Shown here: positions 23,596-63,461 of the stretch, one piece after another
How positions within the stretch are numbered: position 1 is the stretch's first letter
Layout of the letters: every line of letters starts with the position of its first letter
IMG/VR virus record: IMGVR_UViG_3300025469_000003
Location: 1 to 64,000 of that record
DNA: 64,000 bases
Strand: one strand, 5' to 3'
DNA from: a virus
Translations under genes and position numbers: made by a program
The notes under the pieces: model-generated
Database searches by the model: none
What the model was told of the DNA's origin: nothing
The model's input: the letters and a program-made list of their open reading frames with translations, nothing else

Positions 23596-23895
23596 TTAAG
23601 GCATAAATAGCTTGCCTCGTGGATTCTGCGGAGGGGGAAAGCCGTACCCGCCTTGAAACATTCCGGGAGGGAAGTTTCCTGATGAGGCGATTTCCGGCAT
23701 CTTTATCCCGGCCATTGCAATGTTGAATACCGCGCCGCACTTCGCACAGTAGATGACTTGCAAGATGGGGATAGGTTGGCCCGCCGGTATGTCAGGGACT
23801 TCCTTTGTGGCCGCGTTCAATTGCAGCGGTTCGTTGTGACAGTACTGGCATTTGGGTAAGACTTTTGGCGGCTGTTTGGCTGCATCTTCGCTCAT
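23596..23895 (-). CDS. Zinc-ribbon protein with Gly/Pro-rich tail
   Basis: 99 aa. CQYCHNEPL and YCAKCGA form a two-knuckle zinc ribbon; the C-terminal 35 residues are rich in Pro, Gly and Phe. The start overlaps the lysozyme stop by 4 bases. Function unknown. Confidence 0.65.
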   Translation of the reverse strand: MSEDAAKQPPKVLPKCQYCHNEPLQLNAATKEVPDIPAGQPIPILQVIYCAKCGAVFNIAMAGIKMPEIASSGNFPPGMFQGGYGFPPPQNPRGKLFMP

Positions 23896-24332
23896 GTGTT
23901 GTCTCCTGATTCAAATAAGGCTTCCTCTGCCTTGCGCCTTTTGAGTAGGCCAGCCAAGTGCTGTCCGCCTGCCATGTCCCACATCTCTAGCACCTTGGCT
24001 GCGCCGTGATAGTCTTTGTTGTTGAGCAGCCGGAGTGTTGTTGACTTCTCGAAATTTCCGCTTCCAGCATTGAACACGAAGTCCACAAGGCCATCGAACT
24101 CCGGCTGCGTTAGTGGAACATGCACGACGCGGTTGACTTCGGATTCAGCCCATGCCACGTCTGAGAGTAGCCAAGCATCGGCTTGTTCCTGCGTGCAGGT
24201 CATGCCCTCGACCACTTTATAGGTATGCCCCCAACCAATGGTATAGACCTTTCCGTTGGCGTCCCAATAGGCTACAAGCCTGCATTGCTCGAAGTTTTCA
24301 GTTAACTTCATTCCGTCTTTGGAATATCGCAT
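23892..24332 (-). CDS. GH24 phage lysozyme (endolysin)
   Basis: 146 aa, the usual length of T4-type lysozymes. LTENFEQCRLVAYWDANGK then YTIGWGHT holds the Glu, the acidic/polar second residue and Thr of the GH24 catalytic set. The C-terminal NNKDYHGAAKVLEMW and GLLKRRKAEEALF are typical. It cleaves peptidoglycan for lysis. No signal peptide, so a holin would be needed. Confidence 0.92.
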   Translation of the reverse strand: MRYSKDGMKLTENFEQCRLVAYWDANGKVYTIGWGHTYKVVEGMTCTQEQADAWLLSDVAWAESEVNRVVHVPLTQPEFDGLVDFVFNAGSGNFEKSTTLRLLNNKDYHGAAKVLEMWDMAGGQHLAGLLKRRKAEEALFESGDNT

Positions 24333-25459
24333 ACTGCTTTTTCCTTCCCATCGTCTTCCTCGATCACTTGGCAGGCGGCTGGTACGATTTCGTCTGTGTT
24401 CTGTTCTTTGAATATGGCTGTAATGGCTTTGTCTTGTATGTCAAGAACGACCATGCCCGGCTTGCGTAGTTGGCCTGTGCCGATGATCGTTGCCAAAGGA
24501 CTGACGATGTGTTCCTCGATCATGCGCTTGATGTTGCGAGCGCCGTGTTTCGGGTCAGACCCCTTGCTCAGAAACTCATTCAATTTCGTAGTCACGCCAA
24601 GTGTGAACACGAGTTGTTGTGGGGTGGGACTGCGTTCGTTTGCAGCCATCACGACACTCAACCCGCGATTCCATACTTTCCAAACTTCGATGTTAATGAT
24701 TCGGTTAATGGCCTCGGCGGTGAGAGGCTTGTATACCAGAATCTTGTTGATACGCCCCATGAACTCAGGGTCGAACTTTCGTTTCGCGGCGGAGGTAGCC
24801 TGCTTTGAAATGTCCCTGAAAGCCTCGACGTAATCCCTAGCCTCGGCGAAGCCAATGGACTCTTGGTTGATGACCCGGCTACCTACGTTGCTGGTGAGAA
24901 AGATGAGCGCCCGCGTCAAGTCGATGCGCATATTGCGGCCATCGTACATCTCACCTTTGTCCAGAATGCCCAACAGAAGCTCCCACAGGCGTGGGCTGGC
25001 CTTCTCAATTTCATCGAAGAGTATTACGCTCACCTTCGGGCCTTCTTGCGTCCAGCCACGTTGTAGGTTCTCGGGACATAGAAGTGGGCGTGTACCCTTG
25101 TTTCCGGCCTCGGCGGGGTTGTAGTGCCCAGCATAGCCCGGTGGAGACCCTATAATGCGAGCTACTTGGTGATCTTCGGTATATTCTGCGCAGTTGATCT
25201 TTATCATGCAATCCGGGTCTCCGTGGATTGCTTCGGCGATTGACTCTACGGTCAACGTCTTGCCAACCCCAGTCGGTCCCAAAAGTAAAGAATTAAACAT
25301 TGGTTTAGACGGGTCTGACAGGCCAACCCACGCAACCTCGAATGACCTGCTAAGATCATTTAAGGCGTCGTCCTGACCCACTATGCGCTTGAAGAGCAAG
25401 TCTTCAAACTTTTGCCGCGCTTTGGTTTTAAGTGTCAGGTCCAGCGGAATGTTAGCCAT
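24308..25459 (-). CDS. Clp-family AAA+ unfoldase, single D2-like module
   Basis: 383 aa. GPTGVGKT (Walker A), VILFDEIEKA (Walker B), GSPPGYAGH (aromatic pore loop), LTSNVGS (sensor 1) and GARNIKRMIEE (sensor 2) match the second ATPase ring of ClpA/ClpB; the N domain and first ring are absent. After sensor 1 it reads ESIGF, at the position of the IGL/IGF loop by which ClpA and ClpX dock on ClpP. So it could feed substrates to the host ClpP. It overlaps the lysozyme gene by 25 bases. Confidence 0.88.
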   Translation of the reverse strand: MANIPLDLTLKTKARQKFEDLLFKRIVGQDDALNDLSRSFEVAWVGLSDPSKPMFNSLLLGPTGVGKTLTVESIAEAIHGDPDCMIKINCAEYTEDHQVARIIGSPPGYAGHYNPAEAGNKGTRPLLCPENLQRGWTQEGPKVSVILFDEIEKASPRLWELLLGILDKGEMYDGRNMRIDLTRALIFLTSNVGSRVINQESIGFAEARDYVEAFRDISKQATSAAKRKFDPEFMGRINKILVYKPLTAEAINRIINIEVWKVWNRGLSVVMAANERSPTPQQLVFTLGVTTKLNEFLSKGSDPKHGARNIKRMIEEHIVSPLATIIGTGQLRKPGMVVLDIQDKAITAIFKEQNTDEIVPAACQVIEEDDGKEKAVCDIPKTE

Positions 25460-25495: not shown

Positions 25496-26167
25496 TTAAA
25501 ATACTATCCTTAAAACCGGATTATGAATTTTATAGACATAGCAATGTTTCCCCGGCAATTCAATCGAAATCAATTCTCCTTGGTCATACTTTGCTCGAAG
25601 TTTTTTCACGAACGGTTTGTAATCCCCATTGTATTTCGTCCTAAGTGCGCGGGAATGATAAGTCCGTCCGGTTTCGGGGTCTGTGAATCCTCTGTCCTTT
25701 CCGCTGAGACCTATATATTCAAAATTGGATGCTTTGTAGATTACACCGCTATGTCCGTGCATCGGGTCAGCATAACTAACAACAATTTTGATTTCAGGCG
25801 CATTCTTTTTAATCCAACGCAAGGTATAGCCGATCATGCGGCTTTCAGCGTTTTTCCCCACCGAATCAAGGAAAACTAATCGCCGTAATTCCAGTACCTC
25901 TTTTTCGGATTCTCCAAATCTTTTCCAAGCCGTAGTTGAAAATTGACCGTAAACAACCGCACCGACCAACGCGCCTTTATACGTGGCCGAAAAGCAGAAA
26001 GAAATTTTCACCCCATTCAAATTATGTGAGTAATGATGCTGTTCTACAAACATCCGAATATCCGAAAGTTTGCATTGCGCAATTACAAAATCTGTCGCTG
26101 AAATTTGGAGCGAAGGAGTCGGAATCGAACCGCTACCTGACTGCTGGTTGACAGTCTGTCCTACCAT
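25496..26167 (-). CDS. Mom-like DNA adenine modification protein
   Basis: About 223 aa if started at ATG 26167; the conserved part begins near VIAQCKLSDIRMFVEQHHYS. LVGAVVYGQ, LELRRLVFLD, SRMIGYTLRW, VVSYADPMHGH and GVIYKASNFEYIG match the phage Mu Mom family, GNAT-fold enzymes that turn adenine into an acetamido/carbamoylmethyl derivative and so block restriction. Oddly, the only good start and its GGAGGT site fall inside a tRNA-like sequence (26106-26181). An ATT or downstream start is the alternative. Confidence 0.85.
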   Translation of the reverse strand: MVGQTVNQQSGSGSIPTPSLQISATDFVIAQCKLSDIRMFVEQHHYSHNLNGVKISFCFSATYKGALVGAVVYGQFSTTAWKRFGESEKEVLELRRLVFLDSVGKNAESRMIGYTLRWIKKNAPEIKIVVSYADPMHGHSGVIYKASNFEYIGLSGKDRGFTDPETGRTYHSRALRTKYNGDYKPFVKKLRAKYDQGELISIELPGKHCYVYKIHNPVLRIVF

Positions 26168-26181
26168 TAAACGACCTCCGC
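26106..26181 (-). tRNA. Degenerate tRNA-like sequence overlapping the mom start
   Basis: Acceptor GCGGAGG/CCTTCGC, a D arm and an encoded CCA (TCCA) are clear. The anticodon stem GACTG/CAGTC closes an 8-base loop instead of 7 and the T stem needs a bulged A, so the identity cannot be read. It may be a decaying tRNA gene whose 5' acceptor (GGAGGTC) now serves as a ribosome site for mom. Confidence 0.55.
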
Positions 26182-26195
26182 ACTTCTGCAAATTT

Positions 26196-28127: not shown

Positions 28128-28554
28128 TGGGGTCTCCTGTCTGAATGACTACGCCAGTCGCTCCGTTTGGACTCGACGGTGAGGTTGGAAAGATCACGCA
28201 TTGTAGCAGCCTCAGAAAGTCTATCCAGTTCATCGTGACCATCGGCTCCGTCTTATTGCGAGAGTGAATGAGAAGGAGCATGAAAGCACTGTTTTGGTAG
28301 ACCTCTTTATAATCCTGAAACGTCTTGGCGACGTTTAGATGCTCGACGTTTTTGCATTCTATATTGAATGGCAATATCTTACGAGCCGCCGGGCTGAGCA
28401 TGATGTCGGAAAAGCCTTCTCCGCCTTGCGTAGCCATTGGCCGTGATACGATGTCATCAGCCACTAGGCCAAGATTCTTCACAAGCTGTAAAAGATCGAA
28501 GGCTACTCGTTTCTGTAGCCTACGGCCTTTTGCTTTGCAACTTGATGTTTTCAT
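28111..28554 (-). CDS. PD-(D/E)XK-like nuclease
   Basis: 147 aa from ATG 28554, GGAGGGTTGTTC upstream. GFSDIMLSP followed by FNIECKN gives the Asp...Glu-x-Lys core, and the basic start (KAKGRRLQKRVAFDLL) fits phage Holliday-junction-type or VRR-type nucleases. It lies among recA and the primase-helicase, suggesting a role in recombination or repair. Confidence 0.7.
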   Translation of the reverse strand: MKTSSCKAKGRRLQKRVAFDLLQLVKNLGLVADDIVSRPMATQGGEGFSDIMLSPAARKILPFNIECKNVEHLNVAKTFQDYKEVYQNSAFMLLLIHSRNKTEPMVTMNWIDFLRLLQCVIFPTSPSSPNGATGVVIQTGDPNEASA

Positions 28555-29120
28555 GAACAACCCTCCGTCCAATTCATGCAAACGTAACACGCTCCGTTGC
28601 GAACGGTGATGGCCCCGCAATCTTTGCAGGCTGGCGCGTCTGTAGTTTGTGTAGAAATGGTGACGCCTTCAGGGTGCTCAGCGGAGATAAGCATGGCTCC
28701 GGCAGATTCGTTTGACGACGGGGGCACAGCCTTTTTATTTTCTTGTTGTTGTGATGGGGGCTTAAGGAATTTAGAAATAAGCCATCGCCCAACATAGTCC
28801 ATGGGACTTTTAGCAAATTTTATATCTTGATTTTTCGTCCATCCGCTAGGCTCGAACCGTGTGTGAGCGAGCTTGCTGCACAAGTCTTCCAGCGGCACAC
28901 CGTATTGCAGCGCAAGAGAAGCAACAATGGCAAAACAGTCCATCACGCCTGAGATTGTTGAACCTTCTTTGGACATGTTAATGAAAAGTTCACCGGGAGT
29001 TCCGTCTTCGTATAGACCTACAGTGATGTAGCCTTCGTGACCGGCAATGTCCATCTTGTGAGTGATGGCTTGACGCTCATTGGGCAGCCTACGGCGTTCT
29101 GGCATTGGTTGAGTCCTCAT
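28551..29120 (-). CDS. Isolated C-terminal (TSCPD) domain of class II ribonucleotide reductase
   Basis: 189 aa. ITHKMDIAGHEGYITVGLYE, GELFINMSKEGSTISG and LAHTRFEPSG are the conserved blocks of the region after the catalytic barrel of NrdJ (B12-dependent reductase). The tail has CKDCGA and CYVC like the redox cysteines at the NrdJ end. The ~700-residue catalytic part is absent from the window. It may be half of a split enzyme or an independent regulator. Confidence 0.85.
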   Translation of the reverse strand: MRTQPMPERRRLPNERQAITHKMDIAGHEGYITVGLYEDGTPGELFINMSKEGSTISGVMDCFAIVASLALQYGVPLEDLCSKLAHTRFEPSGWTKNQDIKFAKSPMDYVGRWLISKFLKPPSQQQENKKAVPPSSNESAGAMLISAEHPEGVTISTQTTDAPACKDCGAITVRNGACYVCMNWTEGCS

Positions 29121-31776: not shown

Positions 31777-31939
31777 GGGGAGTCCTTCGACTCCCCATCC
31801 TTGTATGCAAACTACGCATTTGCGTAAAGCACCTTCGTGTTTTTCGCAGTTAGTTTTGAGAGTTGATTTCGGAAGTCTCCCACTCCCGGCTCAAATAAGC
31901 GCCGTTTCCTCTTACCCCGGTCGATGCCATTATACCCCC
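31777..31939 (-). ncRNA. ssrA: tmRNA coding piece of a circularly permuted ssrA gene
   Basis: Reading the minus strand from 31939: GGGGGTA (acceptor 5' strand), then TAATGGCATCGACCGGGG, like the tmRNA D-region. P2 strands ACGGC (31905-31901) and TGAGC (31893-31889) match the acceptor piece. An H-type pseudoknot PK1 follows: GGGAGT (31887-31882) with ACTTCC (31876-31871), and loop GGGAG (31881-31877) with CTCTC (31862-31858). Ten bases on is the resume codon GCG (31847), tag AKNTKVLYANA, stop TAG 31814-31812 inside a hairpin GCAAA/TTTGC (P5). A GC-rich hairpin at 31796-31777 may mark the 3' end. Confidence 0.88.
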
Positions 31940-31942
31940 GTA

Positions 31943-32088
31943 TGGTGGAGGTAGAGAGAATCGAACTCTCGTGTCGTTGTATAGTCATACGGCCTGTTTA
32001 TGAGCGTACTTTATAATAGCTCTCGGCGGACCAGAACGCCGGGCTACTGCCAGTACCAAGGGGCCTCACGGCCTCCACCATCTGATCT
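31943..32088 (-). ncRNA. ssrA: tmRNA acceptor piece of a circularly permuted ssrA gene
   Basis: Transcribed before the coding piece. It ends with T arm GAGAG-TTCGATT-CTCTC (31970-31954), TACCTCC (31953-31947), A73 and CCA (31945-31943). TACCTCC pairs with GGGGGTA of the coding piece over 7 bp, with G3-U70, the alanine identity pair. P2 strands GCTCA (32005-32001) and GCCGT (31993-31989) match the coding piece. The upstream part (32080-32010) folds into GC-rich hairpins consistent with tmRNA pseudoknots. Only 3 bases separate CCA from the coding piece. The 5' end is set by the promoter, about 32088. Confidence 0.88.
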
Positions 32089-61771: not shown

Positions 61772-61853
61772 GATCGCCTGTTAACCAGTTACCAAACGGT
61801 GAGCCTCTCTCAGATGGGCAGAGGCTCCCCAACTTTCCTTGGAGTGTGCGTTC

Positions 61854-63461
61854 GTGGCGAAGGAATTGACGTTTGGAAAAGATGCACGTAATAGGATGCT
61901 CATTGGCATCAATGCAGTAGCTAGGCTAGTCTCGGCTACTATTGGTCCTAAAGGTAGATGCATTGTAGTTGAGCGGGTTGTGACTAATCCTGCTACGAAA
62001 GAAGTTGTAAAGCTGTCACCAGTGACTACAAAAGATGGGGTGTCTGTTGCGAGAGCCATTTCACTTCCAAATGCTACAGAAAATTTAGGCTGTGATCTTA
62101 TTCGAGAAGCAGCCCTTCGTACAGTGCAAGAGGCGGGTGATGGCACCACTGCCAGCGTCATACTTTCTCAGGCAATTATTTCTGAGGGGATGAAGGCGCT
62201 GGAAAAAGGAGCCAGTCCGGTTTTCCTACGGTCAGGGATTGACAAGGCTACTGCGAAGATAGTTCAACAACTCGCGCAGATGTCAACGCGCTATGACGGC
62301 ATGGGTCTGGATGTAGCCCGCATCGCGGCGAATGGCGATGAAGAAGTTGCTAAGATTGTAACTGAAGCCTTACAAATGGCTGGTAAGAACGGCATCGTTA
62401 GCGTCGATAGTTCGCGCACAGACAAGACGCACATCGAGTTTTCTGCCGGGATGAGATTTGATTCCGGGTTTCGGCATCCTGATTTCATTACGGATTTTTC
62501 ACGAAATGAGTGCGTTCTTGAAAATCCGTTTATACTCTTGCACGAGCGCCGCATTCAGAGCATTGGAAAGATAGAGCCTTTGCTCGCCGCAGTAGCTCAG
62601 GCAGGCCGTTCGATCCTCATTCTATCAGAGGAATTTGAATTGCCGGTAATGGCGCTGTTATTACAGAATCGCGCTGTGCTGCGCTCGTGCGTCGTAACAG
62701 CACCTTGGTATGGTGAGCGCCGGAGAGATTTTCTTTCTGACTTAGCAGCCTTTACAGGTGGCATTAGTATTGTAGAAGAACTTGGTCTTGATCTGTCTAA
62801 ATGCGACTTGAGTGTCCTTGGACAGGCCGAGCGCGTCGTGGTGACGCGAACTAATACCACGATCATCAAGGGTAAGAGCAAGGGCAATGAGTTGGCGCAG
62901 CGAATCGAATCGCTTTCCAGCGCCATTGCTTCGACGGAGAATCCTTACGACAAGGAAATTCTGGCTGAGAGGTTAGCGAAGTTGGATGGAGGTGTGGCCG
63001 TTATTAAAATAGGCGCTCCAACGGAATCTGAGGCTAAGGAAAAAAGAGATAGAACGGAAGACGCCGTGTTGAGTGTGAAATGTGCTCAGGAAGACGGCAC
63101 AGTTCCGGGAGGAGGAATTGCTCTTTTACGTTGTCAAGAGAGTGTAAATTTCTCGGGTGAAAAACTACACAATGAAGAGCTTGTTGGAATAGGCATTGTT
63201 TTTCATGCTCTTGAGGCTCCATTAAAGCAGATTTTGGAAAACGGCGGTTACAATGTCAAGGATACGATGAAGTGCCTTAAAGGGCGGGCAGATTCAATTG
63301 GCTTTGATGCTTTGTCTGGCGAAGTTGTTGACATGCGGGACAAAGGCATAATGGATGCTTCAAAGGTTGTCAAACAAGCACTTATCAATGCAGCTAGCCT
63401 TGCTGGCACATTTTTGACTGTGGCAGGAAGCATCGTTAATTTGGAGGCAAAGGGTGCGTAA
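61854..63461 (+). CDS. groEL: GroEL-like chaperonin
   Basis: 535 aa from GTG 61854. VAKELTFGKDARNRML, SATIGPKGR, TTKDGVSVA, EAGDGTTASVIL (with the ATPase Asp), DFITD...; RIESLSSAI, RLAKLDGGVAVI, RTEDAVLSV (second catalytic Asp) and DGTVPGGGIALL are the classic GroEL blocks. The Gly-Gly-Met tail is absent. Well diverged from bacterial GroEL, as in other phage chaperonins. It would fold virion or replication proteins with the GroES-like partner downstream. Confidence 0.95.
   Translation: MAKELTFGKDARNRMLIGINAVARLVSATIGPKGRCIVVERVVTNPATKEVVKLSPVTTKDGVSVARAISLPNATENLGCDLIREAALRTVQEAGDGTTASVILSQAIISEGMKALEKGASPVFLRSGIDKATAKIVQQLAQMSTRYDGMGLDVARIAANGDEEVAKIVTEALQMAGKNGIVSVDSSRTDKTHIEFSAGMRFDSGFRHPDFITDFSRNECVLENPFILLHERRIQSIGKIEPLLAAVAQAGRSILILSEEFELPVMALLLQNRAVLRSCVVTAPWYGERRRDFLSDLAAFTGGISIVEELGLDLSKCDLSVLGQAERVVVTRTNTTIIKGKSKGNELAQRIESLSSAIASTENPYDKEILAERLAKLDGGVAVIKIGAPTESEAKEKRDRTEDAVLSVKCAQEDGTVPGGGIALLRCQESVNFSGEKLHNEELVGIGIVFHALEAPLKQILENGGYNVKDTMKCLKGRADSIGFDALSGEVVDMRDKGIMDASKVVKQALINAASLAGTFLTVAGSIVNLEAKGA

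Follow-up and report, generated by a model that had tools for sequence, protein, structure and literature searches.

A single-ring Clp unfoldase of phages and Terriglobia with a conserved, putative ClpP-docking loop

Does a phage gene for a short Clp-like ATPase encode a working unfoldase and, if so, whose peptidase does it serve? The question is raised by a gene in a 64,000-nucleotide stretch of viral DNA (positions 1 to 64,000 of the 91.9-kb IMG/VR record IMGVR_UViG_3300025469_000003; hereafter the window). A sequence-only reading had proposed that this phage protein could dock on the ClpP of the host, and that its presence alongside a tmRNA suggests control of protein turnover. The open reading frame starts with ATG and is closely flanked: a gene for a Mom-like DNA modification protein (25496-26191, minus strand) lies directly upstream, and the start of a T4-type lysozyme gene (23892-24332; Pfam) overlaps the end of the Clp gene. 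The features of the locus are collected in the table.

Features of the Clp gene and of the tmRNA, in window coordinates (residue numbers of the Clp protein in brackets)
Feature	Position	Strand	Basis
Single-ring (D2-only) Clp/Hsp100 AAA+ unfoldase, 383 aa	24308..25459	-	ORF, Pfam, NCBIfam, alignment, AF2
Walker A GPTGVGKT (61-68)	25256..25279	-	alignment
Aromatic pore loop GYAG (108-111)	25127..25138	-	alignment
Walker B ILFDE (146-150)	25010..25024	-	alignment
Sensor 1 TSN (189-191)	24887..24895	-	alignment; N in 78/78 homologues
ESIGF, putative ClpP-docking loop (200-204)	24848..24862	-	aligned with ClpA KSIGL; family conservation; AF2 loop
PEFMGR, arginine finger (231-236)	24752..24769	-	alignment
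Sensor 2 GAR (306-308)	24536..24544	-	alignment
Permuted (two-piece) tmRNA	31812..32005	-	Rfam RF04321, 64.8 bits; acceptor stem
tmRNA tag frame, AKNTKVLYANA*	31812..31847	-	reading of sequence

The window also holds other genes. Eleven tRNA genes are found within 19178-60029, as are genes for RecA, DNA polymerase A, RNA ligase and DNA ligase. A 189-aa protein (28551-29120, minus strand) matches B12-dependent ribonucleotide reductase over the C-terminal part of the reductase only (TSCPD domain), and a 540-aa phage homologue of GroEL is encoded at 61839-63461 on the plus strand (NCBIfam TIGR02348, 515.8 bits). Five Twister-P5 ribozymes (RF02684, 38.5-55.2 bits) are packed into 2.3 kb of this one phage (49138-51405, minus strand); a literature search on Twister ribozymes returned nothing on phages.

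The protein is one D2-type AAA+ ring with an aromatic pore loop, just as the sequence-only reading had it. Pfam assigns AAA_2 (PF07724, 4.5e-31) followed by ClpB_D2-small (PF10431), there is a single Walker A motif, and Walker A and B, sensor 1, the arginine finger, sensor 2 and the GYAG pore loop with its Tyr109 are all intact. All of these ATPase motifs, and with them the aromatic pore loop, are kept throughout the single-ring family described below. In alignment, the N terminus corresponds to the D1-D2 linker of ClpA, so that the N-domain and the D1 ring are both missing, as is any known adaptor. In the window protein, extra residues follow the pore loop; most relatives lack this insertion.

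None of the established Clp identities suits this protein. ClpA and ClpC are defined by two AAA+ rings, a Clp_N domain and a score above the equivalog cutoff; here there is one ring, and the TIGR02639 score is 171 bits against a cutoff of 993. The ClpX profile gives 26 bits against a cutoff of 359, and the ClpX zinc finger has no Pfam match. It is ClpB profiles that give the D2 domain its highest score (TIGR03346, 208 bits), and by domain profiles it is nearer to the D2 of ClpB and ClpC than to that of ClpA. A ClpB disaggregase, however, has two rings with a middle domain and no ClpP loop, and this chain of 383 residues has one ring and a loop that is nonetheless of the ClpA/ClpC kind. Assignment to a defence system was also rejected, the PADLOC matches being to generic AAA+ proteins at no more than about 80 bits.

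ClpA docks in the clefts of ClpP through its IGL loops (PMC7707817), and the proposal that ESIGF occupies the place of the ClpA SIGL held up: its five residues share their alignment columns exactly with E. coli ClpA KSIGL, and it also aligns with the ClpC loop. Across 78 single-ring homologues the docking glycine is invariant (78/78), the next residue is Phe in 74, Tyr in three and Leu in one, and the residue before it is hydrophobic in 77 and Pro in one. Entropy in these rows is 0 bits at the glycine and 0.33 bits at the residue after it, against about 3.2 bits on either flank. In ClpB, by contrast, the site is a gap in the E. coli protein and in three of four others, and the fourth has no motif there. 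Because the glycine is invariant and Phe or Tyr follows it in 77 of 78 homologues while the flanks vary freely, and because ClpB lacks the motif, the predicted docking is very probably functional.

A structure model places the loop where a docking loop should be. The AF2 model of the window protein, built with 27 family members as input, has a pLDDT of 86.3 and a pTM of 0.84. Its sole internal segment with pLDDT below 50 is residues 201-206, which hold IGF and lie between helices 194-199 and 207-228; low confidence here would fit a mobile docking loop. IGF thus falls in a predicted loop at the ClpA docking position and not elsewhere, and both sequence and modelled position put a hydrophobic-Gly-Phe/Leu/Tyr loop at the ClpP face. 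Among the top Foldseek matches are ClpC from ClpC-ClpP assemblies (9a66, 9rai, 9gi1) and ClpB NBD2. The conservation of this loop argues strongly, though indirectly, for a protein that works together with ClpP.

Which ClpP would that be? A phage ClpP elsewhere in the genome was one candidate, and a search of the whole 91.9-kb record found neither ClpP (PF00574) nor SmpB. Since its own record holds no ClpP, the partner of the window Clp is most likely that of the host, although the record may not be the whole genome and a ClpP may be encoded in a part that it lacks. Two phages of the family do encode a full-length ClpP, at 274.7 bits (G017) and 255.1 bits (G027), and in G017 some 3.5 kb separate this gene from the Clp gene, which has the same orientation. 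Weak PF00574 matches in G003, G011, G047 and G052 may be to prohead-type proteases and were left out of account. Family-wide conservation of the loop, its modelled position and a record without ClpP together give good support to the predicted docking on host ClpP.

The window protein belongs to a larger family. Single-ring homologues are many in IMG/VR, and the best genome matches to the window Clp lie on chromosomes of Acidobacteriota (BLAST identity 37-43%). In the acidobacterial class Terriglobia, 70 of 101 genomes encode a single-ring Clp, with one to four copies each (E up to 1e-90). At three Acidobacteriota loci the neighbours of the Clp gene are ordinary bacterial genes, and the loop reads GF in 33 of 34 Terriglobia members and GL in the other. 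These Terriglobia genes (L151-L155 and L538-L567 among them) often occur in two or more copies and have no specific NCBIfam match. In a quick maximum-likelihood tree, a branch with SH-aLRT 96 divides the 78 single-ring rows, the window protein among them, from the D2 domains of two-ring proteins. The Terriglobia proteins are nested among the viral ones; the window Clp is a long branch (1.16 changes per column) near the base. A second, separate viral group of single-ring Clp proteins (L303, L305-L307) has a longer N-terminal region and shares the loop. Many records labelled as phage from Listeria, Staphylococcus and faecal samples also matched Clp; they look bacterial and were left out of the phage evidence. 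From these sequence comparisons, we conclude that this is a real family-wide variant, a predicted single-ring ClpP-type unfoldase of phages and Terriglobia, to which the literature and libraries searched apparently give no family name.

We propose, with a probability of about 0.68, that the gene product is an active single-ring Clp unfoldase which, during infection, docks on host ClpP and feeds it selected proteins. The predicted unfoldase would assemble as a hexamer, its IGF loops would dock into the hydrophobic clefts of host ClpP, and the chosen proteins would be threaded in and degraded. The host peptidase would thereby be fitted with a ClpX-like or ClpA-like subunit of the phage's own. 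More speculatively, the proteins fed in might include those tagged by the tmRNA of the phage itself.

Could the protein act away from ClpP? It might be a remodelling chaperone, engaged in disaggregation or in remodelling virions or replisomes, with the loop an inherited remnant. Its best profile score is indeed to ClpB, the GroEL homologue in the window makes chaperone needs plausible, and a review has suggested that jumbo-phage ClpA and ClpX could act as translocases or in virion assembly (PMC7824862). A remnant loop would drift, yet this one keeps its glycine and its aromatic residue amid variable flanks, and true ClpB proteins have no docking motif; we therefore consider a ClpP-independent chaperone unlikely. 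Retention of a docking loop by a short protein without a substrate-binding N-domain would also suit a decoy that occupies host ClpP, displaces host ClpX or ClpA and so shields phage proteins. A plug has no need of the ATPase motifs and pore loop that are kept family-wide, and the same kind of gene sits in the chromosomes of most Terriglobia genomes (70/101), which makes a decoy highly improbable. An active, ClpP-docking unfoldase is thus the reading we prefer.

The tmRNA of the window is real, and it proved to be of the permuted, two-piece form. It scores above the RF04321 gathering score of 47, has a resume codon and a short tag, and its acceptor stem (GGGGGUA/UACCUCC, judged by eye) has the G3-U70 pair of alanine. 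ARAGORN, run on the window, did not detect it. It lies on the strand of the Clp gene, 6.4 kb upstream; in a group of other records (L105, L107, L271, L290) the distance is about 600 bp.

Permuted tmRNA is enriched in phages with single-ring Clp. RF04321 exceeds its cutoff in 27 of 69 viral records with a single-ring Clp, that is 9 of a set of 22 in which two records (G000 and G001) are the same phage and 18 of a set of 47 that includes four of the L303-L307 group. Only one of 37 records with a two-ring Clp has it (Fisher p 1.7e-5 against single-ring), as do 0 of 16 random viral contigs of at least 33 kb; as background, 53 two-piece tmRNA structures are reported from 18,146 phage genomes (PMC9004378). 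Some single-ring Clp clades have no tmRNA, and the tmRNA state needs at least eight changes on the Clp tree. A permuted tmRNA does not in itself imply a single-ring Clp, for none of 14 such phages drawn by sequence has one. The link is correlational, owed in part to inheritance within phage lineages, and runs in one direction only; shared ancestry, environment and fragmentary records are its confounders.

The tags of these phages are unusual. We read 24 distinct tags from single-ring-Clp phages (that of L322 uncertain at its start), including AKNTKVLYANA in the window, ATAPKALAMAAAA and AETKPLAMAAAAGR. They end in AAA (8), AGR (7), AGA (2), AHA (2), and AGC, AGV, CGR, ANA and MAA (one each). 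The AAAGR ending is common to divergent phages (L319, L329, L332, L333, L335, L336, L341). Controls were permuted-tmRNA viral contigs drawn by T-arm patterns, some of which were checked for single-ring Clp; their 45 distinct tags end in LAA (33), MAA (6), IAA (3), ANA (2) and AAA (1). The canonical [LIM]AA ending is thus found in 1 of 24 tags against 42 of 45 controls (p 4.9e-14, kinship ignored). A second control, drawn with a T-arm taken from the single-ring-Clp phages themselves, still gave almost only [LIM]AA tags. Mimicry of a Terriglobia host by the tmRNA is unsupported: two Terriglobia tags (ANTQLAYAA and ANQNLAYAA) come from tmRNAs of standard form, and these hosts are presumed ones.

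In the ssrA tag, ClpX recognises the carboxylate together with the final residues (PMC7652416), so AGR or ANA endings may be poor ClpX signals; AAA endings may still be read. The tmRNA enrichment and the odd tags suggest, without proving, a phage tag-plus-unfoldase pathway, and a role in tag-directed turnover is plausible. In its full form, that of trans-translation disposal run by the phage, a non-canonical tag (AMxAAA, AAAGR or, here, LYANA) would be read poorly by host ClpX and well by the phage unfoldase, which would deliver the tagged protein to host ClpP under phage control. This stronger version is possible but doubtful. We give about an even chance to association and odd tags reflecting shared ancestry or shared hosts with no tie to Clp; this concerns the tmRNA link alone and is compatible with the other explanations. 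Most records of about 85-110 kb have the tmRNA upstream of Clp on the same strand, suggesting a common genome architecture; moreover, the two-ring and random controls may stem from other environments, and the sequence-drawn permuted-tmRNA phages score 0/14. Against shared ancestry or hosts as the whole answer stand the repeated changes of tmRNA state on the Clp tree, readable Terriglobia tags that end in YAA, unlike those of the phages, and the second control with its nearly uniform [LIM]AA tags. The sequence-only reading is supported in part: across the family the tmRNA link is stronger than a single sequence could show, and control of protein turnover is inferred.

The predicted protein would be a minimal single-ring ClpP-dependent motor, common to phages and a major class of soil bacteria. 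Phage tmRNA tag and phage unfoldase may also form a testable pairing. If the pairing is true, phages would decide which proteins, failed ones or those of the host, are destroyed, tags and unfoldases would become orthogonal degradation parts, and it would help to explain why phages carry tmRNA at all.

How does this protein compare with known systems? With ClpA and ClpC it shares the D2 motifs, the aromatic pore loop and, after sensor 1 and before the next long helix, a docking loop; over 338 columns it is 28% identical to E. coli ClpA. It differs in having neither N-domain nor D1 ring and in falling in a separate clade (SH-aLRT 96). ClpX is likewise a single ring whose IGF loop docks on ClpP; the zinc-binding N-domain of ClpX is missing here and the profile match is weak. 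The ClpA-like proteins of jumbo phages (PHROG 4871; RaK2, Munch, Phosso, Atu_ph07) are also phage-encoded, and their D2 half matches (2.1e-69), but the examples examined have two rings (738-778 aa), and some have lost the docking motif (IGV in RaK2, MNM in Munch). Two-piece tmRNA is known in phages (Melnitz, pelagimyophages; PMC9004378), and the single-ring-Clp phages stand apart from other permuted-tmRNA viral contigs in how rarely their tags end in [LIM]AA (1/24 versus 42/45). The chromosomal single-ring Clp proteins of Terriglobia have the same clade, length and loop; their genes are cellular, and the tmRNA, where a clear one is found, is of standard form.
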